Below, one piece after another: positions 35,988-49,013 of a stretch of 64,000 nucleotides of DNA. The first letter of the stretch is position 1, and every line of letters begins with the position of its first letter. A model generated the notes under the pieces. It was not told where the DNA came from. It worked only from the letters and a program-made list of their open reading frames with translations, and did not search any database. The stretch is taken from positions 447,501 to 511,500 of the forward strand of contig NZ_FZQA01000002.1 of the NCBI RefSeq assembly GCF_900199215.1. The letters run 5' to 3'. The stretch is from Amphiplicatus metriothermophilus. GTDB taxonomy: Bacteria; Pseudomonadota; Alphaproteobacteria; Caulobacterales; Parvularculaceae. The position numbers and the translations under genes were made by a program.

Positions 35988-36326
35988 GTGGTGAAAAAGG
36001 CTTCGCTGCCCGCCGCCGCGGGGGACGTCGCGCAGAACTATCCGGAGCTTTGGAGCGCTTACGCCGCGCTCGGCGAAGCGGCGGCGAAGGCGGGCCCCCT
36101 TGACGCCCGCGCCTGTCGCCTCGTCAAGCTCGGCCTCGCGATCGGCGCAGGTTCGGAAGGCGCGGTGCACAGCCATGTCCGCCGGGCGCTTGACGAAGGC
36201 TTCAGCCCGGAAGAGCTTAAACAGGCCGCGCTCCTCGCGGTCACAACGCTCGGCTTTCCCCGCGCCGTCGCCGCTTTGAGCTGGGTCGAAGATGTCACGT
36301 CGCCCGTCCCGGCCGAGGCGCGATGA
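35988..36326 (+). CDS. Carboxymuconolactone decarboxylase (AhpD-like) family protein without CxxC
   Basis: 112 aa with a GTG start; a second in-frame GTG follows at once and sits at a better distance from the AAGGAGG at 35977. The alpha-helical CMD fold is visible (DARACRLVKLGLAIGAGSEGAVHSHVRRALDEGFSPEELKQAALLAVTTLGFP). The AhpD redox pair is absent: the segment that normally holds C-x-x-C reads SEGAVHSH, so peroxidase-linked thiol chemistry is unlikely; the His could still take part in a proton relay. Co-transcribed with the FNR-type regulator, and overlapping the convergent nnrS gene by 32 bases. Function unknown. Confidence 0.83.
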   Translation: MVKKASLPAAAGDVAQNYPELWSAYAALGEAAAKAGPLDARACRLVKLGLAIGAGSEGAVHSHVRRALDEGFSPEELKQAALLAVTTLGFPRAVAALSWVEDVTSPVPAEAR

Positions 36327-37488
36327 GATAACGTCCGTATACGATGGCGAAGAGCAGAAACGCCGCGCTCCACAGGCCGCTGGAGGCTCCAACCGCCAAT
36401 GCATACTCGACGGGCAGGAACGGCGCCGCGACGCGCAGCGCAGCGCCGAGATTGACGAGCGCATAAATTAAGACCGTCCAGCCGTCGGCGACGAGCGGGC
36501 GGCCCGTATGGCCGCGCGTCGCGCGCGTCATCACCGCGAGAGTCATCACGCCGGCCGCTCCGGCGGCGAGCGCATGGAGCGCCGCCATCGGCGGAACGGC
36601 GCCCGGCGCCAGAGCGGACAGACCCAGCATCAGGAAGCTCGCCGGCAGCCAGAGATAGCCGACGTGAAGGATCGTCACGAGCGGCTCGGCGAAGGTCCGC
36701 AGGCCTCCCCACTGGGAAAGCCGGAGGAGATGGGCGACGCCCGCAACAACCAGGAGAATCCCCGTAAGCGGCCCGAACGGCGCGACCGTCCAGACCGCCA
36801 TGGCCGCGCCAGCCAGCGCGAGCGCGACACTGTCGATCGCCCCGACGCCGGCCTTTATCGGCGCGCGCCCGGTTCTGGCGAGCCAGTTGCGCGTGAAGCT
36901 CGGCGTGATCCGCCCCCCGATCAGCGCAAGCAGCATCGCGACCCCGGCGAGGCCCCAGCGATAGCCGAGGCCCGTCTGCGCGCCCGACAACTGCTCCCCG
37001 TGCCAGATAATATCGCCGGCGGCGAACAGCGTCAGCAGCGCGCAGACCGGCAGATTGCGCCAGTTCCTGCCGGCGACGATCTCGCGCCATACGAAGAAGC
37101 TAACGCCGAGAAGAAAGGCGACGTCGATCGCGGCGGCGGCCCATAAGCCGAACGCGCCGGACATGGCGACGGCGATCCGGCCCGCAAGCCAGATCAGCAA
37201 GCTCCCGGCGAGCGGGGCGCCGACGACGGGCATTCGCCCCGTCCAGTTCGGCACGGCGGTCGTGAGAAACCCCGCAATGACGGCGGCGAGATAGCCGTAG
37301 ACCATCTCGTGGCCGTGCCAGGCGAAAGGACCGTAGGCGCCGCCGACCTCGAACCGGCCGCCAAGCGCCGCCGCCGTGACGACAGGCAGAAGGCCGGCGA
37401 GGAGCGCGCCCGCGAGGAAGAACGGCCGAAAGCCGAAACTGAATAGCGCCGGCCCGGCGTATGCGCGGATTTTTTCAACGGATGGCAT
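36295..37488 (-). CDS. nnrS: NnrS family heme/copper membrane protein
   Basis: 397 aa with about twelve hydrophobic helices and the NnrS features FSFGFRPFFLAGAL at the N-terminus, FAWHGHEMVYGYLAAVIAGFLTTAVPNWTG (conserved His pair) and GGRITPSFTRNWL in the middle. NnrS proteins protect against nitrosative stress and are usually controlled by NO-responsive regulators (NNR, NsrR). The location beside nar, trHb and nsrR fits. It overlaps the 3' end of the CMD-family gene on the opposite strand. Confidence 0.93.
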   Translation of the reverse strand: MPSVEKIRAYAGPALFSFGFRPFFLAGALLAGLLPVVTAAALGGRFEVGGAYGPFAWHGHEMVYGYLAAVIAGFLTTAVPNWTGRMPVVGAPLAGSLLIWLAGRIAVAMSGAFGLWAAAAIDVAFLLGVSFFVWREIVAGRNWRNLPVCALLTLFAAGDIIWHGEQLSGAQTGLGYRWGLAGVAMLLALIGGRITPSFTRNWLARTGRAPIKAGVGAIDSVALALAGAAMAVWTVAPFGPLTGILLVVAGVAHLLRLSQWGGLRTFAEPLVTILHVGYLWLPASFLMLGLSALAPGAVPPMAALHALAAGAAGVMTLAVMTRATRGHTGRPLVADGWTVLIYALVNLGAALRVAAPFLPVEYALAVGASSGLWSAAFLLFAIVYGRYLIAPRPGRAT

Positions 37489-37585
37489 TACGCCCCTCTA
37501 CCCTTGCCGGATGCAGACTGCATCGGGAAGCTGCGGCGCGCTGACGCCCGGGATATACTCGCCGAGCAGCCCCAGAGATCGCGCA

Positions 37586-38212
37586 ATGGCGCAGCCGCCC
37601 GACACCATCCTGCGCGCCTCGCCGGAAGAAGCCGAAGCGATTCGCCGCGCCATACGATCTGCGCGTTGGGTCGACACGCCTTACGGCGCCTATCGCCCAG
37701 CCAGAGCCGCCGATGCGGAAGCGCTCCATGCCCTACTTTCCGATCCGCGCGTCAGCGGCCCGCTCTACACCATTCCCAAGCCCGTACATGCCGACTGGAT
37801 TGCGCAATGGATCGACGCTCATGCCGCTGAAGCGGCGCGCGGCGAAGGCCTCTTGATGGTCGCACGCGACCGCGAAAGCGCGCTTTCCGGCTTCGTCGAT
37901 CTTCATGTCTGGCCCGAGCGCGCTTCGGCCGAATTTGGCGGCGGCATTCGCGCCGATCTTCAGTCGGCCTCGCTGGGTTCGTGCGGGGCGGCCGCCCTCT
38001 TCTTCTGGCTTTTCGAGACGATTGGCATACGGCTGATCGCCATGACGAACGCGCTCGACAATATCCGCACGTCGCGGCTGCTTGCGCATCTTGGCTTTAC
38101 ACGGGGCGCCGACAGGATTTGCATCACAGCCGAAGGCGCTCGCCGCCCGTCCATGTATTGGGAGCTGCGGCGTAAGGACTGGCGTGCAACTTTCGATCAT
38201 AACCCGCCCTAG
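37586..38212 (+). CDS. GNAT family N-acetyltransferase
   Basis: 208 aa from the ATG at 37586; an earlier ATG at 37511 lies only 22 bases from the divergent nnrS start and has no ribosome site. RimJ/RimL-like acetyltransferase pattern: YRPARAADAEALHALLSDPRV, FVDLHVWPERASAEFGGGI, the acetyl-CoA-binding turn replaced by LQSASLGSCGAAALFFWLFE, and LIAMTNALDNIRTSRLLAHLGF. It would acetylate an amine of a protein or small molecule; target unknown. No obvious link to nitrogen oxide metabolism. It overlaps the 3' end of the following convergent gene by 4 bases. Confidence 0.82.
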   Translation: MAQPPDTILRASPEEAEAIRRAIRSARWVDTPYGAYRPARAADAEALHALLSDPRVSGPLYTIPKPVHADWIAQWIDAHAAEAARGEGLLMVARDRESALSGFVDLHVWPERASAEFGGGIRADLQSASLGSCGAAALFFWLFETIGIRLIAMTNALDNIRTSRLLAHLGFTRGADRICITAEGARRPSMYWELRRKDWRATFDHNPP

Positions 38213-38682
38213 AAAAGAATGCCGTGCGCGCCAAGCACGGCGGCGCCTATCGTCACGAGACTGACGATCAGCAAACAAAAATGGAAACGCTGTATCAACA
38301 TGAAAGTCGATTCCGGCGCTGCAGCGGCGCGGCGGCGGAACCACGCGTGAAGAAACAGAGGTTCGGCGACGAAAAGAACGAAAGCGAAGAGGGCCCACAC
38401 GAGCGTCATCGCATGCATCCACCAATATCCGGGATCGAGAAACCGGCCCCAGGCGTCGTAGCGATGCGTGATGTAAAAACCGGTGAGCCCCGCCAGAGTC
38501 ACCGACAGCTTCGCCTGAGAGGAGAACCGCCTCTCCACCGCCTCGAACAGGGCGACGCGGCGCTCCGGCTCGGCCAGACGCGCGATCGCAGGCAGAATCA
38601 CCGCCGTCGCCATGAACACCCCGCCGATCCAGTGCACGACGGCGAGAACGTGAAGCCCGCGGGCGATCGCAATGTCTGTCAT
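38209..38682 (-). CDS. CopD-like small integral membrane protein
   Basis: 157 aa with four transmembrane helices: residues ~7-32, 58-80, 88-112 and 130-155. The first helix, ARGLHVLAVVHWIGGVFMATAVILP, contains two His in the pattern of CopD/DUF2269-type proteins, and HAMTLVWALFAF and RFHFCLL add further His. Bound heme or copper is conceivable. It lies 19 bases behind the truncated haemoglobin gene, so it belongs to the NsrR-linked unit. Family call is tentative. Confidence 0.65.
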   Translation of the reverse strand: MTDIAIARGLHVLAVVHWIGGVFMATAVILPAIARLAEPERRVALFEAVERRFSSQAKLSVTLAGLTGFYITHRYDAWGRFLDPGYWWMHAMTLVWALFAFVLFVAEPLFLHAWFRRRAAAAPESTFMLIQRFHFCLLIVSLVTIGAAVLGAHGILF

Positions 38683-38701
38683 GGCGTTTCATCCGTGCAC
38701 A

Positions 38702-39160
38702 TTATTTTTCGGACGCTGTCGCGGCGCGGCGGAAACGCTCGCCCTTGCGCAGCATGACGCCGCTGAAGCCGGCCACGCCAAGCTCGAGGCTCTCGGCGAT
38801 GCGCTGCGCGCGAACGATGAAATGCGCCGCTGCGGCGGGCGGGCAGACCTCCGCCGCAGTCGCTCGGAAGAGCGTCAGCCAGCGGTCGAAATGCGCCGCG
38901 TCGACCGGCAGAAGCATGTGCTTTTCCATCGGCCGGCCGTGATACCGGCCAGTCATCAGCGCCACCGACGACCAGAACGCGCACATGCGCTGAAGATGTC
39001 CATCCCAGTCGTCGATGCGCGCATCGAAAACGGGACCGAGCAGCGGATCGGCCCTGACCTTGTCGTAAAAACGCCGCACGAGCCGGCCGATCATCGCTTC
39101 GTCGATGCCGGTTTCATGCGCGATTCTGGCTGCGGCCTCGTCGCGTCTGGCGCCGATCAT
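38702..39160 (-). CDS. Group III truncated haemoglobin
   Basis: 152 aa. Group III (P-type) trHb sequence: LVRRFYDKVRADPLLGPVFDARIDDWDGHLQRMCAFWSSV, LMTGRYHGRPMEKHMLLPVDAAHFDRWLTLF. The B-helix FY, the WDGHL block and the His residues that furnish the proximal heme ligand are all present. In Campylobacter the orthologue is induced by nitrosative stress and supports NO dioxygenation or oxygen handling. Its promoter region contains a perfect TATAAT -10 element overlapping the NsrR-like operator at 39223-39243, so derepression by NO is likely. Confidence 0.9.
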   Translation of the reverse strand: MIGARRDEAAARIAHETGIDEAMIGRLVRRFYDKVRADPLLGPVFDARIDDWDGHLQRMCAFWSSVALMTGRYHGRPMEKHMLLPVDAAHFDRWLTLFRATAAEVCPPAAAAHFIVRAQRIAESLELGVAGFSGVMLRKGERFRRAATASEK

Positions 39161-39196
39161 GTTCGAAGTTCACTCCTCTTTTCGTCCGTCTCGGTC

Positions 39197-39225
39197 TTCA
39201 CAGGCGGCGTGTAGCGCATTATAGA
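39197..39225 (+). promoter_or_regulatory. Predicted promoter of the ORF62-DUF454-nsrR unit
   Basis: TTCACA (39197-39202), a 17-bp spacer and TATAGA (39220-39225). On the opposite strand TATAAT (39223-39218) is a perfect -10 for the haemoglobin gene; its -35 is weak. Both -10 elements touch the palindrome at 39223-39243, as expected for repression. Confidence 0.5.
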
Positions 39226-39243
39226 TGTATTGTAAATACATCT
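39223..39243. promoter_or_regulatory. NsrR-like operator, perfect 21-bp palindrome
   Basis: Arms AGATGTATT and AATACATCT are exact reverse complements around GTA. This reproduces the NsrR consensus (two AAGATGYATTT half-sites in inverted order separated by one base). It lies between the divergent truncated-haemoglobin gene and the small-ORF/DUF454/nsrR genes, and an NsrR gene with its three cysteines is 650 bp away. Confidence 0.8.
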
Positions 39244-39263
39244 TATCTGCGAGCGAGACGACG

Positions 39264-39452
39264 ATGCCTTTCCTTTTCAAAACATGGTCGGCGACGCCTG
39301 ACGGGCGAGGCGCGCAGACGGAGATGCATCCGACAGTCGCGCCGCCCGCGCATGAACAGCGGCCGCTGGAATTCGCCCCCTTGCTGGACGGCCTGTTGTT
39401 GGAGGCGGCCCTTTGCGCCTGCGCCTGCTCGAGCGAAAAGACGAACGAATGA
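39264..39452 (+). CDS. 62-aa hypothetical protein with Cys-Ala-Cys-Ala-Cys motif
   Basis: Not a family I recognise. The frame begins at ATG 39264 behind GAGCGAGACG, just downstream of the NsrR-like operator, and its stop codon overlaps the start of the DUF454 gene as ATGA, an arrangement that supports real translation. The product has no signal peptide. Near its C-terminus ALCACACSSE gives three cysteines at alternating positions, a potential metal- or Fe-S-binding or thiol site. The middle is rich in Pro and His (HPTVAPPAHEQRP). It may be a nitrosative-stress or metal-handling micro-protein; this is inference from position. Confidence 0.55.
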   Translation: MPFLFKTWSATPDGRGAQTEMHPTVAPPAHEQRPLEFAPLLDGLLLEAALCACACSSEKTNE

Positions 39453-39811
39453 ATGCGCGACCTTTATGGCTGTTGCTCGGTTTCGGATGCCTCGCCGCCG
39501 GCGCGGCGGGCGCCGTGCTGCCGCTTGTGCCGACGACCCCGTTTCTTCTTCTGGCGGCCTTCGCCTTCGCGCGATCCTCGCCGCGGCTTCACGACTGGCT
39601 GCTCGCCCACCCCCATTTCGGGCCGTTGATCGACAACTGGCGCCGGCATGGCGCGATCGGACGACGCGCGAAGATTCTTGCGGTCGCCGTCATGGCGTTC
39701 GCTTTCGCGTTCAGCATTGCGCTCGGCGCGGGCGCATGGCCCCTCGTCCTTCAGGCGCTTGTGCTGGGCGGGGCGGCCCTGTTCGTGCTCACCCGGCCAG
39801 ATGCGCCCTGA
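39449..39811 (+). CDS. DUF454 (YbaN) family inner-membrane protein
   Basis: 120 aa starting at ATG 39449 inside the stop of the preceding small gene. Typical DUF454 sequence: WLLLGFGCLAAGAAGAVLPLVPTTPFLLLAAFAFARSSPRLHDWLLAHPHFGPLIDNWRRHGAIGRRAK, followed by a third hydrophobic stretch with AFAFAFSIALGAG. Members occur widely beside heme, iron and NO-related genes, but function is unknown. Probably transcribed with nsrR, which starts 76 bases downstream. Confidence 0.88.
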   Translation: MNARPLWLLLGFGCLAAGAAGAVLPLVPTTPFLLLAAFAFARSSPRLHDWLLAHPHFGPLIDNWRRHGAIGRRAKILAVAVMAFAFAFSIALGAGAWPLVLQALVLGGAALFVLTRPDAP

Positions 39812-39887
39812 TCCGGCCGCGCCCGCGCCGTGCTTGCCAAAAGCTTACCTCAGGATACTCCTTTAGCCTTCACAAACGGACACAACC

Positions 39888-40331
39888 ATGCGACTGACCC
39901 TGTTCACCGATTATGCGCTGCGGGTGCTGATGTATCTCGGCCTCAAGCGCGACGAACTCGCCACCATCCGGGAAGTCGCGGCGCATTACCGCATATCGGA
40001 AAATCATCTCATGAAGGTCGTTCACCAGCTCGGAAAGGACGGCTTCGTGACCACCGTGCGGGGCCGCCAGGGCGGGCTCGCCCTCGCCCGGGCGCCGAAA
40101 GACATCAATATCGGCGACGTGGTCAGACGCTATGAAGACGATCTGCGGCTGGTCGAGTGTTTCGACCGCAAGACCAACACCTGTCCCATCGCCGGCGCCT
40201 GCGCGTTGACGGGCGTTTTCCACGACGCCCTCGCCGCATTCCTCAAGGCGCTCGACCGCAAGACGCTCGCGGACGTCCTGAAACGCAGCCCGGCGATCGG
40301 CGCCCGTCTTGGCATTGCGCAGCAGGCATGA
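39888..40331 (+). CDS. nsrR: NsrR-type Rrf2 family NO-sensing repressor
   Basis: 147 aa. Rrf2 winged helix at the N-terminus (MRLTLFTDYALRVLMYLGL, SENHLMKVVHQLGKDGFVTTVRGRQGGLALA) and three cysteines, Cys91, Cys99 and Cys105, in ECFDRKTNTCPIAGAC, the [4Fe-4S] ligands in NsrR; the loss of the cluster by NO lifts repression. The spacing of the last two (six) is as in known NsrR proteins. A consensus operator lies 645 bp upstream in front of its own probable operon, so autoregulation is expected. IscR is excluded by the different cysteine pattern. Confidence 0.93.
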   Translation: MRLTLFTDYALRVLMYLGLKRDELATIREVAAHYRISENHLMKVVHQLGKDGFVTTVRGRQGGLALARAPKDINIGDVVRRYEDDLRLVECFDRKTNTCPIAGACALTGVFHDALAAFLKALDRKTLADVLKRSPAIGARLGIAQQA

Positions 40332-40418: not shown

Positions 40419-40805
40419 TCAAAAAGCGCCGACAACGCGGCGCAGCCTCTCGCGCGCCTGGTCGGCGATTTTCTCAAGCGAAGGATTGCCGATGATCGCC
40501 ATCGCAGCCGTCGGATCGATCGCCGCGATTTCGACGCCGTCATTTTGGAGCTCGCGCAGAACAATGTTGCACGGAAGCATGACGCCTACCCTTTCTTCCG
40601 CCTTCAGCGCTTGATGAGCAAGCTTAGGATTGCAGGCGCCGAGGATTACATATCGCGGAAACTCGACGTTGAGTTTTGCTTTCAGCGTCTGACTGACGTC
40701 GATTTCTGAAAGCACGCCGAATCCCTCAGCGGCGAGGGACTCGATCATTTTCGCTTTCGCTTCATCAAACGGCGCATCTACGATTTTTGCGATGTAATAT
40801 TTCAT
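40419..40805 (-). CDS. DUF302 domain protein
   Basis: 128 aa, cytoplasmic, one DUF302 domain: FDEAKAKMIESLAAEGFGVLSEIDVSQTLKAKL, YVILGACNPKLAHQALKAEERVGVMLPCNIVLRELQNDGVEIAAIDP. Two conserved cysteines (in GACNP and LPCN) are retained. DUF302 proteins often accompany sulfide:quinone oxidoreductases and related thiol or heme genes, with unproven function. Last gene of the six-gene operon, 39 bases behind the SQR gene. It could bind a persulfide or metal with its cysteines, which is conjecture. Confidence 0.9.
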   Translation of the reverse strand: MKYYIAKIVDAPFDEAKAKMIESLAAEGFGVLSEIDVSQTLKAKLNVEFPRYVILGACNPKLAHQALKAEERVGVMLPCNIVLRELQNDGVEIAAIDPTAAMAIIGNPSLEKIADQARERLRRVVGAF

Positions 40806-40844
40806 GGCGGCCTCTTTCGTTTCTGCATGAACGGCGAATCGCGC

Positions 40845-42116
40845 TTACCCTTTCAGCTTGTGAACGCCCATCAGATTCAGAACTGCTTTTTCATATATCG
40901 GTTCAGGGTTTCCGCGGCGAACTTTTCGCAAAAAATATTTCTCAAATGCGCCCTTCGCCATGTGAACCCACTTTCCTTGCGCTGACCAATTGACATTACG
41001 CGGCGGGATCTGCGGCATGGCGACGAAAGCGACGCCGCCGTCCCCGAAATCGGCGAGGCAAACCGCGTTCCATGTCGCTTCGTTTTCAGGGGAGCGTCCT
41101 TCGATCAGCGCTGCGATATTCTTCGCCGTCGCTGCGACCATCGATTCGATCATGAAGCCGGTTTTCGGCACGCCGACCGGGACCGGCGTCTTTCCAACCG
41201 GGGGAATGGCCACGCACACCCCGACCGAAAAGACGTTTGTAAACGTTTCATTTTGCTGATGCTTGTCGACGAGCACGAATCCGCGGGGATTGACGAGGCC
41301 GTCGATATCGCGCACCGCCTCCACCCCCCGGAACGCCGGCAGAATCATCGCATAATGGAAATCCAATTCATGGCTTGCAACGATGCCGCCGTCGGAGCCG
41401 ATCTCTTCAACGCTCATCCTGTCGCGCTCGACCTTGGCGATTCTGGCGTTGACGATCCATTTGATATGCCGGTCACGCAGCTCCGACTCCATGAGGCTTT
41501 TCGTGTCGCCTACGCCGTCAAGTCCGAGGTGGCCAATGTAAGGTTCGCTGGTGATGAAAGTCATGGGAACCCTATCGCGAATCTTACGACGTCTAAGCTC
41601 CGTATCAAGAATGAAAGCGAATTCATAGGCTGGACCAAAGCATGACGCGCCTTGAGATGCGCCGACGACGACCGGTCCCGGATTTTTAACGAACGCATCA
41701 AACGCTTCGCCGGCCCTGGCGGCATGTTCGGTCGTGCAAATCGATTGCGTAAATCCTTTCGGACCCAATCCCTCGATTTCGTCGAAGGCGAGTTCCGGCC
41801 CCGTCGCGATGACGAGATAATCGTAATCGAGCATCTCGCCGTCGCTTAAAACAATCCTATTCTCCGAGGGGTTCACCTTCGCCGCGGCCTTATGAATGAA
41901 ATCGATTTCTTTCCGCTTCATGGGAGTCTCAAGCGGAATCTGAATGTCCTCCGGCTTGCGCCAGCCCACGGCGACCCATGGATTAGAGGGCGTGAACTGG
42001 AATGACGACCTGTCAGAGACAAGCATCACCCGATCCGACTTCCGCGCCTCCTTGCGCATTTCGTAAGCCATCATCACCCCGCCGAGGCCGCCGCCTAAGA
42101 TTGCTATCGTCGCCAT
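40845..42116 (-). CDS. sqr: Sulfide:quinone oxidoreductase-like flavoprotein
   Basis: 423 aa. FAD-binding GGGLGGVMMAYEM at the N-terminus, LVIATGPEL, and PKTGFMIESM near 317-326. Three cysteines stand where SQR has them: Cys127 (SICTTEHA), Cys159 (GASQGASCFGPAYEF) and Cys353 (NAVCLADFG), the same 32-residue first spacing and a similar overall span as in Acidithiobacillus SQR (128/160/356). Cys127/159-type residues and FAD oxidise sulfide to polysulfide or persulfide and pass electrons to quinone. A C-terminal amphipathic region (MAKGAFEKYFLRKVRRG) suits membrane attachment. NDH-2 and flavocytochrome c relatives lack this cysteine set. Fifth gene of the operon divergent from the BigR/SqrR-like repressor. 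Confidence 0.88.
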   Translation of the reverse strand: MATIAILGGGLGGVMMAYEMRKEARKSDRVMLVSDRSSFQFTPSNPWVAVGWRKPEDIQIPLETPMKRKEIDFIHKAAAKVNPSENRIVLSDGEMLDYDYLVIATGPELAFDEIEGLGPKGFTQSICTTEHAARAGEAFDAFVKNPGPVVVGASQGASCFGPAYEFAFILDTELRRRKIRDRVPMTFITSEPYIGHLGLDGVGDTKSLMESELRDRHIKWIVNARIAKVERDRMSVEEIGSDGGIVASHELDFHYAMILPAFRGVEAVRDIDGLVNPRGFVLVDKHQQNETFTNVFSVGVCVAIPPVGKTPVPVGVPKTGFMIESMVAATAKNIAALIEGRSPENEATWNAVCLADFGDGGVAFVAMPQIPPRNVNWSAQGKWVHMAKGAFEKYFLRKVRRGNPEPIYEKAVLNLMGVHKLKG

Positions 42117-42140
42117 GGTCTTGTCCCTCTCCGAACCTGT

Positions 42141-43553
42141 CTAGAAGCTACGGCGCACCGCGAAAAATATATTTGTATTATCTGTAAGCTGACTAAATAA
42201 AACGTCTTTACGTGGACCATAGAATAAATTCCCGCCGGCCTCCACAAGCCAGTCATCGGTCAGCTTGTAGCTTGCGCGCAGACGCAAATGACCGTCGTCC
42301 TGATTTGGACTCCAGAAATTGAACGCGCTCAAGGTCAGGTTCTGATTCAACGCGAGCTTGGTCAGTCTCATGGTCAGGAGGTGGCGCGTCCACGGCTCGG
42401 AGGAAGCATCGACCGGCAGGGCGGACAGGAATGCATTATGATCCGACCTTACTTGCGCATAATACTGGAAGCCGACCGTGAACTCGCTCGCCGCCTCGCG
42501 CTCAAAACCCACAAGAAGTCGGAGGTCGCTGTTCGGGAGCAGAGGGTCGTCGCCATCCGAATCGTCGCGGGAAAAATAACGGCCGATCTCAGCGGTCAGA
42601 ATGCCGCCCAGAAACGGACCGCGCAGACTCGCTCCCACAACGGCAAGGCGCGGAAAAACGAATTCGCCTTCCGGCGACAGGCCGTTCGGCGCCTTGAAAT
42701 AGCCGATATAACCGTAAACGGCACTCTCGAACGCTCCGATATTACGAAAGATTCTTCCCGCGAATTCGTCGTCTCTGAACCATTCGTCAGGCGTTAAAGA
42801 GTCAAGGATGAAACCCTTTCCTACAACGCGGTCACCGAGCGGATTGAAATAGGAAAGCCTTGACCCGTCTATGAAGCGGTCTGCATCGAAACGCGGCGTA
42901 TAGACAATATCGAGATTGGCGAGATCATGGAAAAAAGAAACGCGGATCGCGTCCGAAGGCGCCTTCAGATACTCGTCATCGCGTCCGATGAAGAAAGATC
43001 TGAAATCCTTTGGAAACAGATCATTGATGAAAATGAGATCGCCGACGCCCCAGGTGAGAATTTGACGACCTGCTTTCATGTCGACGAAATCGAGCGGACG
43101 CCAAACGATGTTCGCTTCACGAAGATCAAAAGCGCCCTCGCCGGCCTCAAGATCAGGCTCTCGCCGATCATCGACCTCGTCATATACGGCGTCTCCGACG
43201 AAGCGCAGAACCAGATCGCCCGGACGCCACTCGGACTCCAGGCGAAGCCGCGTCTCTGCAATCGTGAATGCTCCCTCGTTCGGGTCCTCCTGCAACCGCG
43301 GTCCGACGCGCGCTTCCACAAAACCTGCGATCTCGCCGAATATGGCCGGCCGCGAGCCCTCGTTTCGCCATGCCCGCGCTTCCTTTTCGGCCGGTTCGCC
43401 GCCAAGACCGGCCGGCAAGGCTGGCTCCTCGGCAGGTTGTTCCTTCTTCTTCTCTTCAGGCTCGGCGAGTCCAGTCGGCAGAGGCGGTTCTTGCGCTACG
43501 GACGGCGCGACGAGAGCGAGCGTCAGAGCAAGGTATAGAGCGCGCAGAAACAT
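42141..43553 (-). CDS. DUF1302-like outer-membrane beta-barrel protein
   Basis: 470 aa with a signal peptide (LYLALTLALVAPSVAQ). A low-complexity Pro/Glu/Lys linker follows (about residues 22-62) in which the pentad LP-T/A-GL appears twice (LPTGL, LPAGL). The remainder is a barrel: FGEIAGFVEARVG, ETRLRLESEWRPGDLVLRFVGDAVYD, the DUF1302-like FDLREANIVWRPLDFVDMKAGRQILTWGVGDLIFINDLF, and a terminal FFAVRRSF. Genes of this kind commonly sit with a LolA-like protein and an MMPL exporter, as here, and may form the outer-membrane end of a lipid or hydrophobe route. Confidence 0.82.
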   Translation of the reverse strand: MFLRALYLALTLALVAPSVAQEPPLPTGLAEPEEKKKEQPAEEPALPAGLGGEPAEKEARAWRNEGSRPAIFGEIAGFVEARVGPRLQEDPNEGAFTIAETRLRLESEWRPGDLVLRFVGDAVYDEVDDRREPDLEAGEGAFDLREANIVWRPLDFVDMKAGRQILTWGVGDLIFINDLFPKDFRSFFIGRDDEYLKAPSDAIRVSFFHDLANLDIVYTPRFDADRFIDGSRLSYFNPLGDRVVGKGFILDSLTPDEWFRDDEFAGRIFRNIGAFESAVYGYIGYFKAPNGLSPEGEFVFPRLAVVGASLRGPFLGGILTAEIGRYFSRDDSDGDDPLLPNSDLRLLVGFEREAASEFTVGFQYYAQVRSDHNAFLSALPVDASSEPWTRHLLTMRLTKLALNQNLTLSAFNFWSPNQDDGHLRLRASYKLTDDWLVEAGGNLFYGPRKDVLFSQLTDNTNIFFAVRRSF

Positions 43554-43556
43554 CGC

Positions 43557-44360
43557 TTATCGCAGATGCTCGCGCGGCGGCGTGCGCAAATACCGTTCTG
43601 AAAAAATATCCATCGGCAGTCCGATGTCGTAATCGACCGCGCGGTAGACCATTGTAGTCACGCCGCCGATATTACGGTCTTCCATGCGCGATTCGACGAC
43701 AGTCGGATGACCCTCGACATCCTCGACACGCAACGCCGAATAAGTTCTGTAGACTTCGCCGTATTGATCATAGTATTCAGTCTTGACAGGTATAAATGTA
43801 GACTTGTGTATCCAATTTTTATACTTTGAAAACTCGACAGCATCCGGCTTCTTCGGAGCGCTTTCGATCACGTAGTAATTTTCGGTCTCCTCAACGAGAA
43901 TGTGCGTATCTTCTTCGGGGCTCCGGCCCGAGACATCCTCGTAGAAGAAGTGAGATCCGACGAAGCTCGTTCGCTCGTCGCTCGCCGCAATGCGCTTCAC
44001 GAGGTCAAGCGCAGGAAGATAAAGCCAGCGGTCGTCGTCTGAGCCGACGTGCTTCCACACCAGGAAAGCGGTGCGATTCACGTCCGCGGGTCTGGAGAAA
44101 TAAACGTAAAAGCGCTGCTCGCCGTTATCGAGGTCATCGACGTCGGCCCGCAGGATCACGAATTCCCTCGTGCGTTTGCGCCCCTGCGCGTCCGCGATGG
44201 TCATCGAAACTGTGGCCTTGCCGTCTGCTCCCTGGTAATAAGCCGCCGCGCTTGCCTTATTGACGATCGCCTGGGCGGAAATATCGGTTTCGGCGGACGC
44301 AGGAACGACCGCAACTGCTAGCGCAAGCGCGCCGGCCAACCTAGTTCGCATGGCGGACAT
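43557..44360 (-). CDS. LolA-like outer-membrane lipoprotein-sorting protein
   Basis: 267 aa from the ATG at 44360, which has AAGGAGAG six bases upstream and lies inside the last codons of the MMPL gene (20-base overlap). A signal peptide (LAGALALAVAVVPASA) directs it to the periplasm. The fold is that of the LolA-like family PF17131: SMTIADAQGRKRTREFVILRAD, RFYVYFSRPADVNRTAFLVWKH, DDRWLYLPALDLVKRIAASDERTSFVGSHFFYEDV. It would shuttle a lipophilic molecule through the periplasm between the RND pump and the barrel protein. Only 3 bases separate it from the barrel gene. Confidence 0.88.
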   Translation of the reverse strand: MSAMRTRLAGALALAVAVVPASAETDISAQAIVNKASAAAYYQGADGKATVSMTIADAQGRKRTREFVILRADVDDLDNGEQRFYVYFSRPADVNRTAFLVWKHVGSDDDRWLYLPALDLVKRIAASDERTSFVGSHFFYEDVSGRSPEEDTHILVEETENYYVIESAPKKPDAVEFSKYKNWIHKSTFIPVKTEYYDQYGEVYRTYSALRVEDVEGHPTVVESRMEDRNIGGVTTMVYRAVDYDIGLPMDIFSERYLRTPPREHLR

Positions 44361-47007
44361 AAAACTCTCCTTTTCCAGACTTTTTTCGAAACAGGGTCTT
44401 TTCGAACAGCGTAATGATCGCCGGCAAAGCAAGCAGGCTCGTCGCGCCGGCTAGCAACAGGATCGCTGATATGAATATGCCGACAGTCTGATACGGCACG
44501 AGCGGCGCAAGCAGAAGCGGCAGAAAGCCTACGCCGATGACAATTACGTTGCGCATAATCGCCCGAGCGGGCTCCCCGAATGTCATAGACGCGGTTTCGC
44601 GCCATGTCCCCAGTCGCTCGAAGATTTGTCGACTGCGCGCATTAAAGTGAATCGCATAATCAACTGCGAGGCCGAGACTGAGCGCTGACAACACGGCCAC
44701 AGGCATGTCATAGTCTTTTCCGATAAGGCCAATGACTCCGTATATCATGGCGATCGTCACTGTTAGCGGCGCCATTGACACAAGCCCCCACCAGAACGAA
44801 CGGAACAAAAATGTCATCAGGATAAGGACGATGAGAAAACTGCCAAGAAAGGCTGTCAACATTCCCCATACCATCTTCTTCTGCCAAATGACGTTGATGT
44901 AAGTGAGGCCGAACCAGTCGTGTTTCAATGCAACCGGCGCAGGGTTCGCAGCCATATAGGCGTCGACTTCCTCGATGACCTGGTTCATATCGATATTGTC
45001 GCCGCTCTTGAGCTGCAGCCAAATGTTCGCCTTGCGGAAATCGGGCGTCACGAGCTTGAAAAGATCCTGCGGTCGATGGCTGTTCTGATATGTAATGAGC
45101 GTTTGCGCCACGGCGCTCGCGCTGTCGGGAATGCGGAAGGCCGACTTCTCTCCGAGGAGAAGCTCCCGATGCACTGTCTTGACGATATCAGGAAGCGCGT
45201 TCGTTTTTCCAACAACCCCTTTCTCTTCGAGATGCGCCTGAAGGCCTTCGATAAATCGAAGCATGTCCGGGCGCTTGAAGATGTCGGCCGTCTGACGCGC
45301 CTGATCCAGAGCGAGAAGCACGTCGTCCCATTCGTACCATTGCGCATCGTCGCCAGCCGCCTCCCGCGCTTCGAGAGCCTGTTCTTCCAGCGTGGCGAGG
45401 AAAAGCTCGGACGAGTCGGCTTGCTCGAAAGCTTCAGGGATGCGCGCCGCCGTCGCTGCGGCGGCATCGGTGTCAAGCGCTTCGATCAGCCGACGGGTCT
45501 CTGCCGCCAGCGCAGCGAGTGTTTCAGCGCCAGCGGCGGGCTCCAACGTCAAATAGGCCATGTAGGTTCCGGCGAAACGCTCGTTGAGCGTCCTGTCCGC
45601 AACGCGGATCTGATGATCCGGCGCAAACCATTTCACGGGATTGTCGTTTATGCGGATCTGCGAAACGCCGTATAAGGAGACGGCAAGAGCGACGATGAGC
45701 ATAGATACGATCGCTTTTGGCCGCTCGACAGCAAAATCCCCCACGCCATGTAGAAATCTAGCGAGCAGTCCCCGAGCCTCCCGGCTTTCCGAAGCCGCCC
45801 CTTTGGCGCCGAATTTCTCCAGCGCTTTTTTCGGCATGAGCATCACATAAGCTGGAATGAGCGTGATGGTGAACAGCCACGCCAAGAATACTCCTATTGA
45901 AACGAACACGCCGAAGACCTGAACCGGCGGAATGGGCGTGAAGGCGAGCGAGGCGAAGCCGGCGCATGTCGTCAAGGTCGTGAACAACATCGGCCGCCAC
46001 AATTCGCTCATCACATGGAATATCGTTTGCCGCCGATCCTTGTATTGCGGGTAGCGGTCATAGAAGTCCGACAGAATGTGTACTGCATCGAGCACGGCGA
46101 TCGGCATCACAAAGATCGGAATCATCGAGCTCATGATATGAACGGTGTTGCCGGTCGCGACGAGAAGTCCCATGGCGCCGATCACGGAAATCATTGCAAC
46201 CAGCATCGGCGATACGATCAGGCCCACATTGCGGAAGAAGAGCCACATGAGAATGAAGATGAGCAGCATCGCCGCCGGAGCGGAGATCGCCATCTGCCGG
46301 AACATCTCCACTCCGAACTGATCCTGCGCGATCGGAAGACCCGTAATGTAATACTCTGCGCCGGTTTCAAAATCGGCGATCTTCTCACGCAGGGCGCGCG
46401 CGACTCGGTAGCTTGCATCTTTCGAGGTAATGGGAATGTAAAGCGCGAGCGCTTTCCCGTCGCCGGAGACAAGGGTGTCCTTCAGTGTGGGGATGCGCTC
46501 GGCGCGCGCGCGCACGGCGCGTGCTTCTTCGTCCGTTTCAGGCGGGCGCGGCATCAGCCAGTCGAAACTTACTGAGCCGAGCCCCGCCTGCTCGATATTA
46601 TCGACGGTCGATGGCGCGATTATGTCGACGCCGATAACGCCGACCGTCGCACCGTCATCTTCCCAGCGGATGGTCTTGGCGAATTCGGTAAGCGCGTAAA
46701 CATCGCTTAACGTTCGCGCCGTGAAGACTCCATCTGCAGTCGTCTGGTCTACGACGCCGACGACAATGAGGTCATGCAGCGTGAACTCGTCCTTCATCGC
46801 GTTATGATAAACGCGCACCGGCTCGTCCTCGCCGAGCATATTCTCAGGATCGGTGTCGATCTTGAGCGGCTGAAGAAATGAGAAGGTTTCCGGCGCGAGC
46901 GTTGGCGCGGCGATGAGCGCAACCATCAACGCGGCGAAGACGCCGGCGAGCTGCATCATCAGTGCCGGGCGGTTCGTCGCCAGTTCCGTTAGGAAGGGCG
47001 TTCTCAC
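44341..47007 (-). CDS. MMPL/RND superfamily exporter
   Basis: 888 aa with the RND layout: a first transmembrane helix, a periplasmic domain of ~200 residues, a bundle of five or six helices (AAMLLIFILMWLFFRNVGLIVSPMLVAM, IMSSMIPIFVMPIAVLDAVHILSDFYDRY), then a second copy of loop plus bundle ending GATSLLALPAIITLFEKTLFRKK. The conserved Asp in IAVLDAVHIL and ALSLGLAVDYAIHFNARSRQIF mark the proton-relay helices of MMPL/HpnN-like transporters, which move lipids such as hopanoids or mycolates. Substrate unknown. Second gene of the SQR operon. Confidence 0.9.
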   Translation of the reverse strand: MRTPFLTELATNRPALMMQLAGVFAALMVALIAAPTLAPETFSFLQPLKIDTDPENMLGEDEPVRVYHNAMKDEFTLHDLIVVGVVDQTTADGVFTARTLSDVYALTEFAKTIRWEDDGATVGVIGVDIIAPSTVDNIEQAGLGSVSFDWLMPRPPETDEEARAVRARAERIPTLKDTLVSGDGKALALYIPITSKDASYRVARALREKIADFETGAEYYITGLPIAQDQFGVEMFRQMAISAPAAMLLIFILMWLFFRNVGLIVSPMLVAMISVIGAMGLLVATGNTVHIMSSMIPIFVMPIAVLDAVHILSDFYDRYPQYKDRRQTIFHVMSELWRPMLFTTLTTCAGFASLAFTPIPPVQVFGVFVSIGVFLAWLFTITLIPAYVMLMPKKALEKFGAKGAASESREARGLLARFLHGVGDFAVERPKAIVSMLIVALAVSLYGVSQIRINDNPVKWFAPDHQIRVADRTLNERFAGTYMAYLTLEPAAGAETLAALAAETRRLIEALDTDAAAATAARIPEAFEQADSSELFLATLEEQALEAREAAGDDAQWYEWDDVLLALDQARQTADIFKRPDMLRFIEGLQAHLEEKGVVGKTNALPDIVKTVHRELLLGEKSAFRIPDSASAVAQTLITYQNSHRPQDLFKLVTPDFRKANIWLQLKSGDNIDMNQVIEEVDAYMAANPAPVALKHDWFGLTYINVIWQKKMVWGMLTAFLGSFLIVLILMTFLFRSFWWGLVSMAPLTVTIAMIYGVIGLIGKDYDMPVAVLSALSLGLAVDYAIHFNARSRQIFERLGTWRETASMTFGEPARAIMRNVIVIGVGFLPLLLAPLVPYQTVGIFISAILLLAGATSLLALPAIITLFEKTLFRKKSGKGEFYVRHAN

Positions 47008-47046
47008 AGCGGCGTGGCCTTTCCAGTATGCCTGGTCGACAGTCGG

Positions 47047-47250
47047 TTACTTAAAGGCGGGACCGGGTCTGAAGCCGAGCGCCTTGAAAATTCTGGCCGC
47101 CGGGCAAAACCCGGTAAACGCGGCCTGCAACATGTTAAGACCGGCGAAAGCCGTCAGAGCGAGCCAGTAAGGGTGCGCCCACAGTCCCAAAAACAGGCTC
47201 GTGAGGATGAGCGCGCCGGCGAAAGCGAAAACCATGCGGTCGATATTCAT
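47047..47250 (-). CDS. DUF2892 (YgaP-type) small membrane protein
   Basis: 67 aa from the ATG at 47250 (GAGGAG upstream). Two transmembrane helices with MNIDRMVFAFAGALILTSLFLG and WLALTAFAGLNMLQAAFTGFCPAARIFKALGF, the DUF2892 signature FTGFCP-x-x-x-I with its single Cys. In YgaP the same membrane module follows a rhodanese domain that binds persulfide sulfur. DUF2892 genes are regular members of BigR- and SqrR-controlled sulfide operons. First gene of the operon, behind the predicted promoter at 47369-47397. Confidence 0.9.
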   Translation of the reverse strand: MNIDRMVFAFAGALILTSLFLGLWAHPYWLALTAFAGLNMLQAAFTGFCPAARIFKALGFRPGPAFK

Positions 47251-47360
47251 TGTCGCGCTCCTCTGTTTCCTTTCCGCTTTGCATTCTCTAAACCTCCTCG
47301 CGCAGGCCACGCCTTGCGCTGACTCAAACCACGGCGCGCGGCCGTCCGCTCGCTGCGGGC

Positions 47361-47397
47361 TTGAACTATTTATATATTCGAATGTATGAATGTTCAA
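47361..47397. promoter_or_regulatory. Divergent promoter/operator of the BigR-like repressor and the SQR operon
   Basis: An inverted repeat TTGAAC (47361-47366) ... GTTCAA (47392-47397) encloses an imperfect 16-bp palindrome, ATATATTCGAATGTAT (47372-47387, one mismatched pair). On the minus strand TTGAAC (47397-47392), 17 bases and TATAAA (47374-47369) form a good sigma-70 promoter for the SQR operon with the palindrome in its spacer, ideal for repression. Confidence 0.6.
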
Positions 47398-47698
47398 GAT
47401 GGCGCCCCTTGAGAAAATGACTCAAAACGCCGAGGCTGCTTCCGAGCTGCTCAAGGCGATCGCGAGCCCCTCGAGGCTCCTGCTGCTTTGCGCGCTCGCC
47501 GAGGGTGAGAAATCCGTTTCGGAGCTTACCGAAACCCTCGGCATGCGGCAGGCCACGGTCTCCCAGCACCTCGCCCGCTTGCGGCAGGAGGGCCTAGTGG
47601 CTACACGCCGAGACGCCCAGTCGGTCTATTACCGTATCGCGGATAGGACGGCCCACGAGATCATCGGCATTCTCTATCGACGTTTTTGCGAACCCTGA
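47390..47698 (+). CDS. ArsR family repressor, BigR/SqrR/YgaV-type persulfide sensor
   Basis: 102 aa. Winged-helix ArsR protein: ELLKAIASPSRLLLLCALAEGEKSVSELTETLGMRQATVSQHLARLRQEGLVATRRDAQSVYYRIAD. Two cysteines, Cys34 in LLLLC and Cys100 in RRFC, are 66 residues apart, the same spacing as the sulfide/persulfide-sensing pair of BigR (42/108) and SqrR (41/107), where a disulfide or tetrasulfide link releases DNA. The metal-binding CxC of ArsR is absent. The longest ATG is annotated because it best fits family length; ATGs at 47399 and 47417 are alternatives, and 47417 suits the promoter better. It should repress the divergent SQR operon. Confidence 0.88.
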   Translation: MFKMAPLEKMTQNAEAASELLKAIASPSRLLLLCALAEGEKSVSELTETLGMRQATVSQHLARLRQEGLVATRRDAQSVYYRIADRTAHEIIGILYRRFCEP

Positions 47699-47789: not shown

Positions 47790-48115
47790 ATGGATACAGA
47801 AAGAAGGCTGCCGAGATATTCGGCTGAGATCCGCGACCGTGCGGTGCGCATGGTCCTTGATCATGAGAACGACTACGGGTCCCGCCGGGCGGCGATATCC
47901 TCGATCGCGGAGAAGATCGGCTGCACGTCGGAGACGCTGCGGCGTTGGGTGAAGACGTCGGAGCGCAACGGCGCCGCGGCGACGACTGGCGGGGATGCGA
48001 ACGCGCGGCTCAAAGCGCTGGAGCGGGAGAACCGGGAGCTCCGGCAGGCCAATGAGATACTCCGCAAGGCCTCTGCTTATTTTGCCCAGGCGGAGCTCGA
48101 CCGCCGGTTCAAGCC

Positions 48116-48119
<4 letters not shown>
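47790..48119 (+). CDS. IS3-family transposase OrfA
   Basis: 109 aa with a helix-turn-helix (RYSAEIRDRAVRMVLDHENDYGSRRAAISSIAEKIGCTSETLRRWVKTSE) followed by a leucine-zipper-like helix (LKALERENRELRQANEILRKASAYFAQAELDRR), as in IS3/IS911 OrfA. Binds the terminal repeats and, in intact elements, is fused to OrfB by -1 frameshifting. Its stop codon overlaps a start codon for OrfB (ATGA at 48116). Confidence 0.93.

Positions 48120-49013
<894 letters not shown>

Follow-up and report, generated by a model that had tools for sequence, protein, structure and literature searches.

A candidate sulfane-sulfur-responsive transport module: an SqrR/BigR-like repressor beside genes for an MMPL pump, a LolA-like carrier, and an outer-membrane barrel

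How bacteria with a sulfide:quinone oxidoreductase (SQR) rid the inner membrane of insoluble zero-valent sulfur and bring it across the outer membrane is, to our knowledge, an open question. It is raised by a locus in the 64,000-base stretch of DNA analyzed here (the window), where an SQR gene stands in line with genes for a pump, a carrier, and a barrel. Seven open frames occupy positions 40419-47698, all at the places given in a preliminary description of this DNA. The ArsR gene is divergent from the genes for DUF2892, MMPL, LolA-like, DUF1302-type barrel, SQR, and DUF302 proteins, in that order.

47390 to 47698, plus strand: ArsR-family repressor, SqrR/BigR-like, with Cys34 and Cys100; alternative start ATG at 47399
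47376 to 47391, unstranded: divergent-promoter match to the SqrR-type operator ATTC-N8-GAAT
47047 to 47250, minus strand: DUF2892/YgaP-like transmembrane protein with conserved Cys49
44341 to 47007, minus strand: MMPL/RND transporter, 888 aa, with D307/H310 and D783/H787 conserved
43557 to 44360, minus strand: LolA-like periplasmic carrier (PF17131), with P. gingivalis LolA3 as the nearest solved fold
42141 to 43553, minus strand: outer-membrane beta-barrel, DUF1302-type
40845 to 42116, minus strand: SQR with Cys127/159/353
40419 to 40805, minus strand: DUF302 protein with Cys58 and Cys79
42166 to 42195, minus strand: sequence ahead of SQR that resembles a promoter by consensus alone

Pfam families matched by the window proteins are DUF302, Pyr_redox_2, LolA_like, MMPL, YgaP-like_TM, and an ArsR-type HTH. 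The spacing is as first described, with gaps of 3-39 bases and one overlap: from the open frame coordinates, 39 bases separate DUF2892 from MMPL, 3 the LolA-like gene from the barrel, 24 the barrel from SQR, and 39 SQR from DUF302, and MMPL and LolA-like overlap by 20 bases when the LolA-like ATG is taken at 44360. Promoter-like sites numbered 6 in a simple scan versus 2.5 (sd 1.4) in shuffles, and one of the six (42195-42166) directly precedes SQR, which weakens the single-transcript reading; SQR may be expressed separately. A terminator-like scan gave 7 sites, fewer than in shuffles (10.0). The six genes may be transcribed as one unit.

The ArsR residues Cys34 and Cys100 are 66 residues apart. 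In the best PDB match, 6o8k, which is titled "ArsR family" and which we take to be SqrR, two Cys stand opposite them in the alignment, as do the Cys pairs of 3pqj ("Biofilm growth-associated repressor") and HlyU. Spacing and alignment bear out the earlier statement that the pair is as in BigR/SqrR; in Acinetobacter baumannii BigR it is C34/C100, according to passages of PMC7315123. Because the protein reaches 96.8 bits with the NCBIfam BigR model NF040642, short of the cut-off of 155, we call it SqrR/BigR-like only. The divergent promoter contains an exact match to ATTC-N8-GAAT, the SqrR-type consensus taken from passages of PMC9774250. Exact operators occur at 5 of the 14 divergent ArsR loci listed (0.12 expected), four of them in the window's own close group and the fifth in Marinobacter, and at 0 of the 21 same-strand ArsR loci listed. 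The alignment shows both Cys kept in all 14 regulators of the divergent loci; the first is absent from planctomycete ArsRs. Cys pair and exact predicted operator together agree with the persulfide-type (SqrR/BigR-type) control proposed at the outset, which we regard as a sequence-based prediction.

The claim that an inner-membrane pump, a periplasmic LolA-like carrier, and an outer-membrane barrel are encoded side by side holds well, for the three travel together. The pump matches the MMPL Pfam profile at E 1e-33 (117 bits, cut-off 20.5), and its D307 and D783 are found at 82 and 84 of the 84 listed loci, respectively; these conserved Asp are presumably of the proton-relay type. It is not identified as HpnN (NCBIfam TIGR03480, 79.3 bits, cut-off 751.85). 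Its Cys348 was considered as a sulfur site, being invariant in the first five sequences, but it is Cys in only 11/84 and was dropped. The carrier matches LolA_like (PF17131) at E 3e-57, and its predicted fold compares with LolA3 at TM 0.80/0.90; normalized to the query, TM is 0.80 to LolA3 versus ∼0.4 to classical LolA. The barrel was earlier labeled DUF1302-like: its predicted fold matches OprD-type and AlgE pores at Z 22, and 34 of 53 family members match DUF1302 (PF06980), whereas the window protein itself matches no Pfam family, PF06980 included. Structure alignments covered 52 of the 55 listed barrels and 35 of the 57 listed LolA-like proteins, plus those of the window. No Cys occurs after residue 30 in 28/36 LolA-like proteins and 40/53 barrels. 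We did not use this as a sign of adaptation, since lack of Cys is common among such proteins.

The window SQR aligns end to end at E 4e-143 with a solved SQR, which we take to be of the Acidithiobacillus ferrooxidans type, and the three catalytic Cys (127/159/353) noted before are present and included in the alignment. It is the sole SQR match in its genome. The DUF2892 Cys is conserved in 49/49 aligned sequences. That the usual sulfide enzymes are "replaced" here was too strong a claim, because elsewhere the genome encodes a persulfide-dioxygenase (PDO)-like protein, which scores 422 bits with the Blh model, short of the required 625; as an alternative sink for the SQR product, it counts against export. 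The genome also holds three rhodanese stretches elsewhere, and a SoxB model search of it gave no match.

Does this arrangement recur? The MMPL, LolA-like, and barrel genes form a distinct module with ten phylum labels among the matches listed, and recurrence of the set in such distant genomes places it beyond chance. Among 84 listed loci, LolA-like genes are present at 79, barrels at 68, DUF2892 at 48, ArsR at 35 (within 3 kb), DUF302 at 13, and SQR at 12 (within 6 kb); as 80 loci were picked by likeness to the window MMPL, these are shares among the matches listed and not prevalences, and the profiles were built from the same loci on which they were counted. A separate class sample of loci is less biased than this set. 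A binomial estimate that takes a 1% chance per genome and disregards relatedness was given no weight. At least one of ArsR, DUF2892, DUF302, and SQR occurs at 61/84 loci and none at 23/84 (11/44 with ample flanks), and the same profiles found none at 10 paralogous MMPL/LolA-like loci (0/10). The trio therefore occurs mostly without SQR, in part with ArsR, and for the greater part with sulfur-linked genes overall, so the early link of the trio to SQR and BigR survives in the last form, with SQR an optional partner and not an integral one. SQR accompanies the module in more than one branch and gene order, with 11 changes counted on the MMPL tree. SQR-bearing genomes number 19 of the 82 searched: in 13 SQR and module lie no more than 7 kb apart, in 4 SQR is elsewhere, and 2 are undecidable from the coordinates. 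Genomes with the module include those of Desulfobulbaceae and Planctomycetes that gave no SQR match. Several SQR-like FAD proteins were not counted as SQR: those at L024, L054, L086, L093, and L106 (45-122 bits), one at L040 (361 bits, 7 kb away), and an Ilyobacter FAD oxidoreductase by SelD that stands apart from the trio. The proteins of L054 and L093 bear a rhodanese domain.

Module neighbors include rhodanese, CoA-disulfide-reductase-rhodanese, thioredoxin, and OsmC. Rhodanese domains occur in 6/184 near genes versus at most 1/114 far genes, the near scan covering 184 of 239 genes (those of at least 700 aa and others removed by hand) and the far scan 114 of 219. L030 duplicates L025 and was removed, L119 repeats L036, L123 is taken as a repeat of L082, L128 and L129 lie outside the analysis, and one genome may be counted twice among the 82 (G022, G042). 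Marinobacter bryozoorum DSM 15401 (L063) carries the ArsR gene, exact site, DUF2892, trio, and DUF302.

We propose, with about even confidence for and against, that the locus is a sulfane-sulfur-responsive trans-envelope transport module whose export of a hydrophobic sulfur product or a sulfur-modified lipid eases sulfide/polysulfide stress. The ArsR repressor would occupy the ATTC-N8-GAAT site lying between arsR and the operon and, by analogy with SqrR, BigR, and SoxR, would release it, inducing the operon, when persulfide or polysulfide modifies its two Cys. A proton-driven MMPL pump would then extract a hydrophobic, probably sulfur-containing substrate from the inner membrane, the LolA-like protein would ferry it across the periplasm, and the barrel would let it through the outer membrane. 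Through their Cys, DUF2892 and DUF302 are likely to handle sulfane sulfur in bound form, and SQR, where present, would produce sulfane sulfur as an add-on. The sharper version, a widespread sulfide-induced exporter whose cargo, moved from the inner membrane to the cell surface by way of the LolA-like protein and a barrel of its own, is either zero-valent sulfur (as S8 or organic polysulfane) or a persulfidated lipid, is tentative, and we think it rather unlikely in this full form.

The trio could instead move an ordinary lipid between the membranes, hardening the envelope against sulfide or polysulfide with no sulfur cargo. Solved-structure relatives of the pump include HpnN, NPC1, and MmpL proteins, which move lipids, sterols, and siderophores. 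LolA-type proteins bind hydrophobic moieties, according to published work. However, the DUF2892, DUF302, SQR, and rhodanese neighbors indicate sulfane sulfur itself, and the best 25 neighbor families per list hold one glycerol-3-phosphate acyltransferase and no recurring lipid-synthesis family, which leaves this a possible reading but not a probable one. We consider it improbable that the ArsR protein responds to oxidants or other electrophiles, that the pump provides general stress efflux for hydrophobic or thiol-reactive compounds, and that the sulfur neighbors are secondary, since the recurrent partners are sulfur-handling proteins. This reading gains from tributyltin derepressing E. coli ygaVP, which has a homologous regulator (in passages of PMC9774250), from an H2S-induced Azospira SQR/RND operon that can be deleted with no change in the rate of H2S oxidation (in passages of PMC5358917), and from related MMPL/LolA-like genes that answer iron or alkanes (in passages of PMC10434189 and PMC6304351).

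The direction of transport might also be reversed, with barrel and carrier importing hydrophobic extracellular sulfur (S8, polysulfane) in sulfidic habitats. OprD-type pores, which the barrel fold matches, take substrates in, and the module is also present in Desulfobulbaceae and Planctomycetes whose genomes gave no SQR match; RND pumps, however, normally export. Polysulfide import through porins has been proposed elsewhere (passages of PMC12142623), but the pairing of the module with SQR and with a repressor of the BigR type points to disposal of surplus sulfur, and import strikes us as improbable too. If the exporter reading is true, elemental sulfur would have a trans-envelope route of its own at this locus. 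The conserved pump-carrier-barrel set under a predicted persulfide-type sensor supplies named genes for deletion, also in Marinobacter bryozoorum DSM 15401.

The locus resembles the BigR/SqrR operons of Xylella, Acinetobacter, and Rhodobacter and E. coli ygaVP in its homologous ArsR, 66-spaced Cys, and SqrR-type site, and its DUF2892 corresponds to the transmembrane part of YgaP. Unlike theirs, its operon lacks genes for PDO, rhodanese, and TauE/YeeE and carries MMPL, LolA-like, and barrel genes. RND pumps adjoining SqrR-type repressors are noted in passages of PMC12423496, likewise a sulfane-sulfur-type ArsR next to an RND-superfamily transporter; the words "MMPL" and "lipoprotein" are absent from its main text. 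The bacterial sterol transport system BstABC was considered as a further point of comparison. Azospira suillum Dsui_3440-3443, in the passages of PMC5358917, similarly groups SQR with an RND-type pump, is strongly expressed with H2S, and was flagged by fitness data, and expression of a DUF2892 gene outside it goes up about 10-fold; its pump has an MFP subunit and its operon one further gene of no named function, unlike the window.

The transporter/carrier pairing itself is shared with Porphyromonas/Prevotella operons of MMPL and lipoprotein-sorting-protein genes, which rise in iron starvation (in passages of PMC10434189); LolA3 (9tp6) is the nearest solved fold to our carrier. Those operons differ in their TetR and ABC genes and iron response, and the Prevotella barrel is 24% identical; in a Prevotella nigrescens record, the MMPL and DUF1302 matches lie about 1.1 kb apart. 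Thalassolituus oleivorans TOL_3187, an MMPL protein that includes a LolA-like domain and is discussed alongside a possible porin, is up 42-fold on long-chain alkane, and sulfur genes are unnamed in those passages of PMC6304351. Since related transporters answer iron or alkane, the transporter type is not sulfur-specific. Our literature searches found no MMPL/LolA-like/barrel form under a sulfur-type sensor. Already in print are RND pumps by SqrR-type repressors, an SQR/RND operon, and related MMPL/LolA-like genes that respond to iron or to alkanes.

The seven open reading frames of the preliminary description, an ArsR regulator and six genes divergent from it, are present in the window as given, and its spacing also holds: the minus-strand genes (in order DUF2892, MMPL, LolA-like, barrel, SQR and DUF302) lie 3 to 39 bases apart, with one overlap of 20 bases. 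The features used in the argument are as follows.

47390, plus strand: start of the ArsR gene; 47250, minus strand: start of DUF2892, the two forming a divergent pair with a shared intergenic stretch
47376-47391, ArsR/DUF2892 divergent intergenic region: exact ATTC-N8-GAAT, a predicted SqrR-type site
42195-42166, minus strand: promoter-like site immediately upstream of SQR (consensus match only)
47790-49013, directly behind the ArsR gene: transposase pair (domain matches; IS3-type by interpretation)
L126:1498-2400, in the genome of the same organism (G000:C15:125722-126588): persulfide-dioxygenase-like (PDO-like) protein matching the dioxygenase part of Blh

Six promoter-like sites, counted as consensus matches only, were observed against 2.5 (sd 1.4) in shuffles, and the one ahead of SQR would count against a single transcript. 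ATTC-N8-GAAT is the consensus reported for SqrR (PMC9774250, excerpt). The entire window holds two matches against 1.35 expected by chance, so the weight of the operator rests on its position. The exact site occurs upstream of ArsR at 5 of 14 divergent loci against 0.12 expected (the window and its closest relatives account for four, Marinobacter for one) and at none of 21 loci with a same-strand ArsR; locus L125 carries a second ArsR gene, and an additional exact site lies between it and SQR. Cys34 and Cys100 of the window ArsR align with Cys residues of BigR, HlyU and PDB 6o8k, and A. baumannii BigR senses through C34/C100 (excerpt of PMC7315123). Across loci, the C-terminal Cys is retained in 31/39 and the N-terminal in 23/39, and all 14 divergently placed ArsRs keep both. 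Planctomycete ArsRs (L080, L088, L090, L091, L098, L101 and others) do not have the first sensing Cys, and their signal may therefore differ from that of the window type. The C-terminus of these proteins has a closely spaced Cys pair, possibly a different sensor. Loci L038, L040 and L041 gave no ArsR match within 3 kb, and a Crp/Fnr-type regulator lies ahead of DUF2892 there. L073 and L089, both Thermodesulfobacteriota, have a SAM hydroxide adenosyltransferase gene directly upstream of ArsR.

The window MMPL matches the MMPL/RND superfamily profile and scores far below the cut-off of the HpnN model. Among its residues, D307/H310 and D783/H787 are almost invariant across the 84 relatives, and 8 or 9 of 9 paralogs share them; many further residues are near-invariant in the module MMPLs only, which thus form a distinct group. 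By profile, the LolA-like protein falls in PF17131 (E 3e-57). The closest solved fold to its predicted model (pLDDT 86.5) is that of P. gingivalis LolA3 (TM 0.80/0.90), with classical LolA reaching a query-normalised TM of only about 0.4. For the barrel (predicted model, pLDDT 88), Foldseek matches are porins and AlgE; against OprD-type and AlgE pores the model scores Z about 22. A DUF1302 match is seen in 34 of 53 family members, but the window barrel has none.

A scan of named genomes gave at least 80 loci, of which 79, together with the window and L024-L027, make up an 84-locus set (L030 left out as a duplicate). By profile, LolA-like was matched at 79, the barrel at 68, DUF2892 at 48, ArsR within 3 kb at 35, DUF302 at 13 and SQR at 12; one or more of the last four lies near the module at 61. 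Among the 44 loci with ample flanks, the corresponding counts are 44, 41, 32, 19, 5 and 5, with 33 having any of the four. Identical profiles found none of the four at ten paralogous loci drawn from the same family (one of them within the genus), where LolA-like was matched at 10, MMPL at 9 and the barrel at 1. In an even sample of the class, the barrel occurs in 8/385 genomes, accompanied by MMPL, LolA-like and DUF2892 in all eight, ArsR in six and SQR in two (the window and L125, 2.5 kb from the module). These counts indicate a unit of the MMPL/LolA-like/barrel trio plus DUF2892, often with ArsR, in which SQR is optional.

Over its full length, the window SQR aligns with the best-matching solved SQR (E 4e-143); it has the three catalytic Cys claimed for it (Cys127/159/353) and is the sole such match in its 3.16 Mb genome. 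Its proposed place in the operon stands in part: SQR adjoins the trio here and at other loci, but most carriers show no match to it. It lies behind the barrel in the window, L026, L029 and L031, divergent with DUF2892 behind in Methylococcaceae (L045, L058) and Porticoccus (L059), and directly ahead of MMPL in Desulfobulbus (L083); counting also L042, truncated at a contig end, and L049, at a distance of 6.5 kb, SQR is near the module at 14/84 loci, and adjacency changes 11 times on a quick MMPL tree. SQR was matched in 19 of 82 carrier genomes (15/49 + 4/33), by coordinates within 7 kb of the module in 13 (including L042, split over two contigs), elsewhere in four (G045, G052, G075, G118) and ambiguously placed in two (G057, G071). 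The other 63 have no match, which shows that the module can do without this SQR; because some of the genomes are related, the counts are not fully independent. Further neighbours include rhodanese (L027), CoA-disulfide-reductase-type proteins with a rhodanese domain (L054, L093), OsmC (L065), thioredoxin (L062, L065) and a metallo-beta-lactamase-fold protein (L042). Rhodanese domains are modestly enriched (6/184 near genes vs at most 1/114 far genes), and thioredoxin is not (3/99 in one near set vs 2/114). DUF302 is found in sox clusters (PMC11034169, PMC5037610, both in part).

By record label, the full trio occurs in Pseudomonadota, Planctomycetota, Thermodesulfobacteriota, Hydrogenedentota, Bdellovibrionota, Myxococcota, Omnitrophota, Verrucomicrobiota, Fusobacteriota and one Thermoplasmatota record, most carriers being metagenome bins, for which this assignment could be mistaken; profile searches did not find the barrel in Kiritimatiellota, Nitrospirota or Chloroflexota loci. 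On an Ilyobacter plasmid, the trio is 40-47% identical to that of the window; selD, yedF and a DUF3343 gene lie near it (L024:5408-7321). A close LolA-like homologue (65-73% identical) occurs in 3 of 40 relatives and in none of eight other members of the genus, some with incomplete genomes (one weak match, G006). G+C is about 0.55-0.59 over the cluster (40 to 47 kb) and about 0.60-0.71 in the flanks, which, with the adjoining IS3-type transposase pair, suggests horizontal arrival. Beside the operon, 36295-40331 encodes NnrS, a bacterial globin, DUF454 and an Rrf2 regulator (RirA/NsrR-like, three Cys), possibly an NO or Fe-S stress cluster.

Persulfide-type control and envelope transport by the module are well supported by the anatomy of genes and predicted proteins. 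A sulfur-containing substrate is suggested by the neighbouring genes, and the PDO-like protein (422 bits to the Blh model, below its cut-off of 625) would offer the SQR product an intracellular fate, so that it need not leave the cell. For these reasons, we give about even chances to a sulfane-sulfur-responsive trans-envelope module exporting a hydrophobic sulfur product or sulfur-modified lipid. In literature on MMPL, LolA-like and DUF1302 together or with sulfide, seen partly as excerpts and with subscription journals thinly covered, we did not find this module under a sulfur-type sensor. Related transporters appear under iron starvation (PMC10434189) and during alkane growth (PMC6304351), as excerpted. 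Already known, from the portions available, are the action of sulfane-sulfur ArsR regulators on RND efflux pump genes (PMC12423496) and an SQR/RND operon that is induced with H2S and whose deletion leaves the oxidation rate unaltered (PMC5358917).
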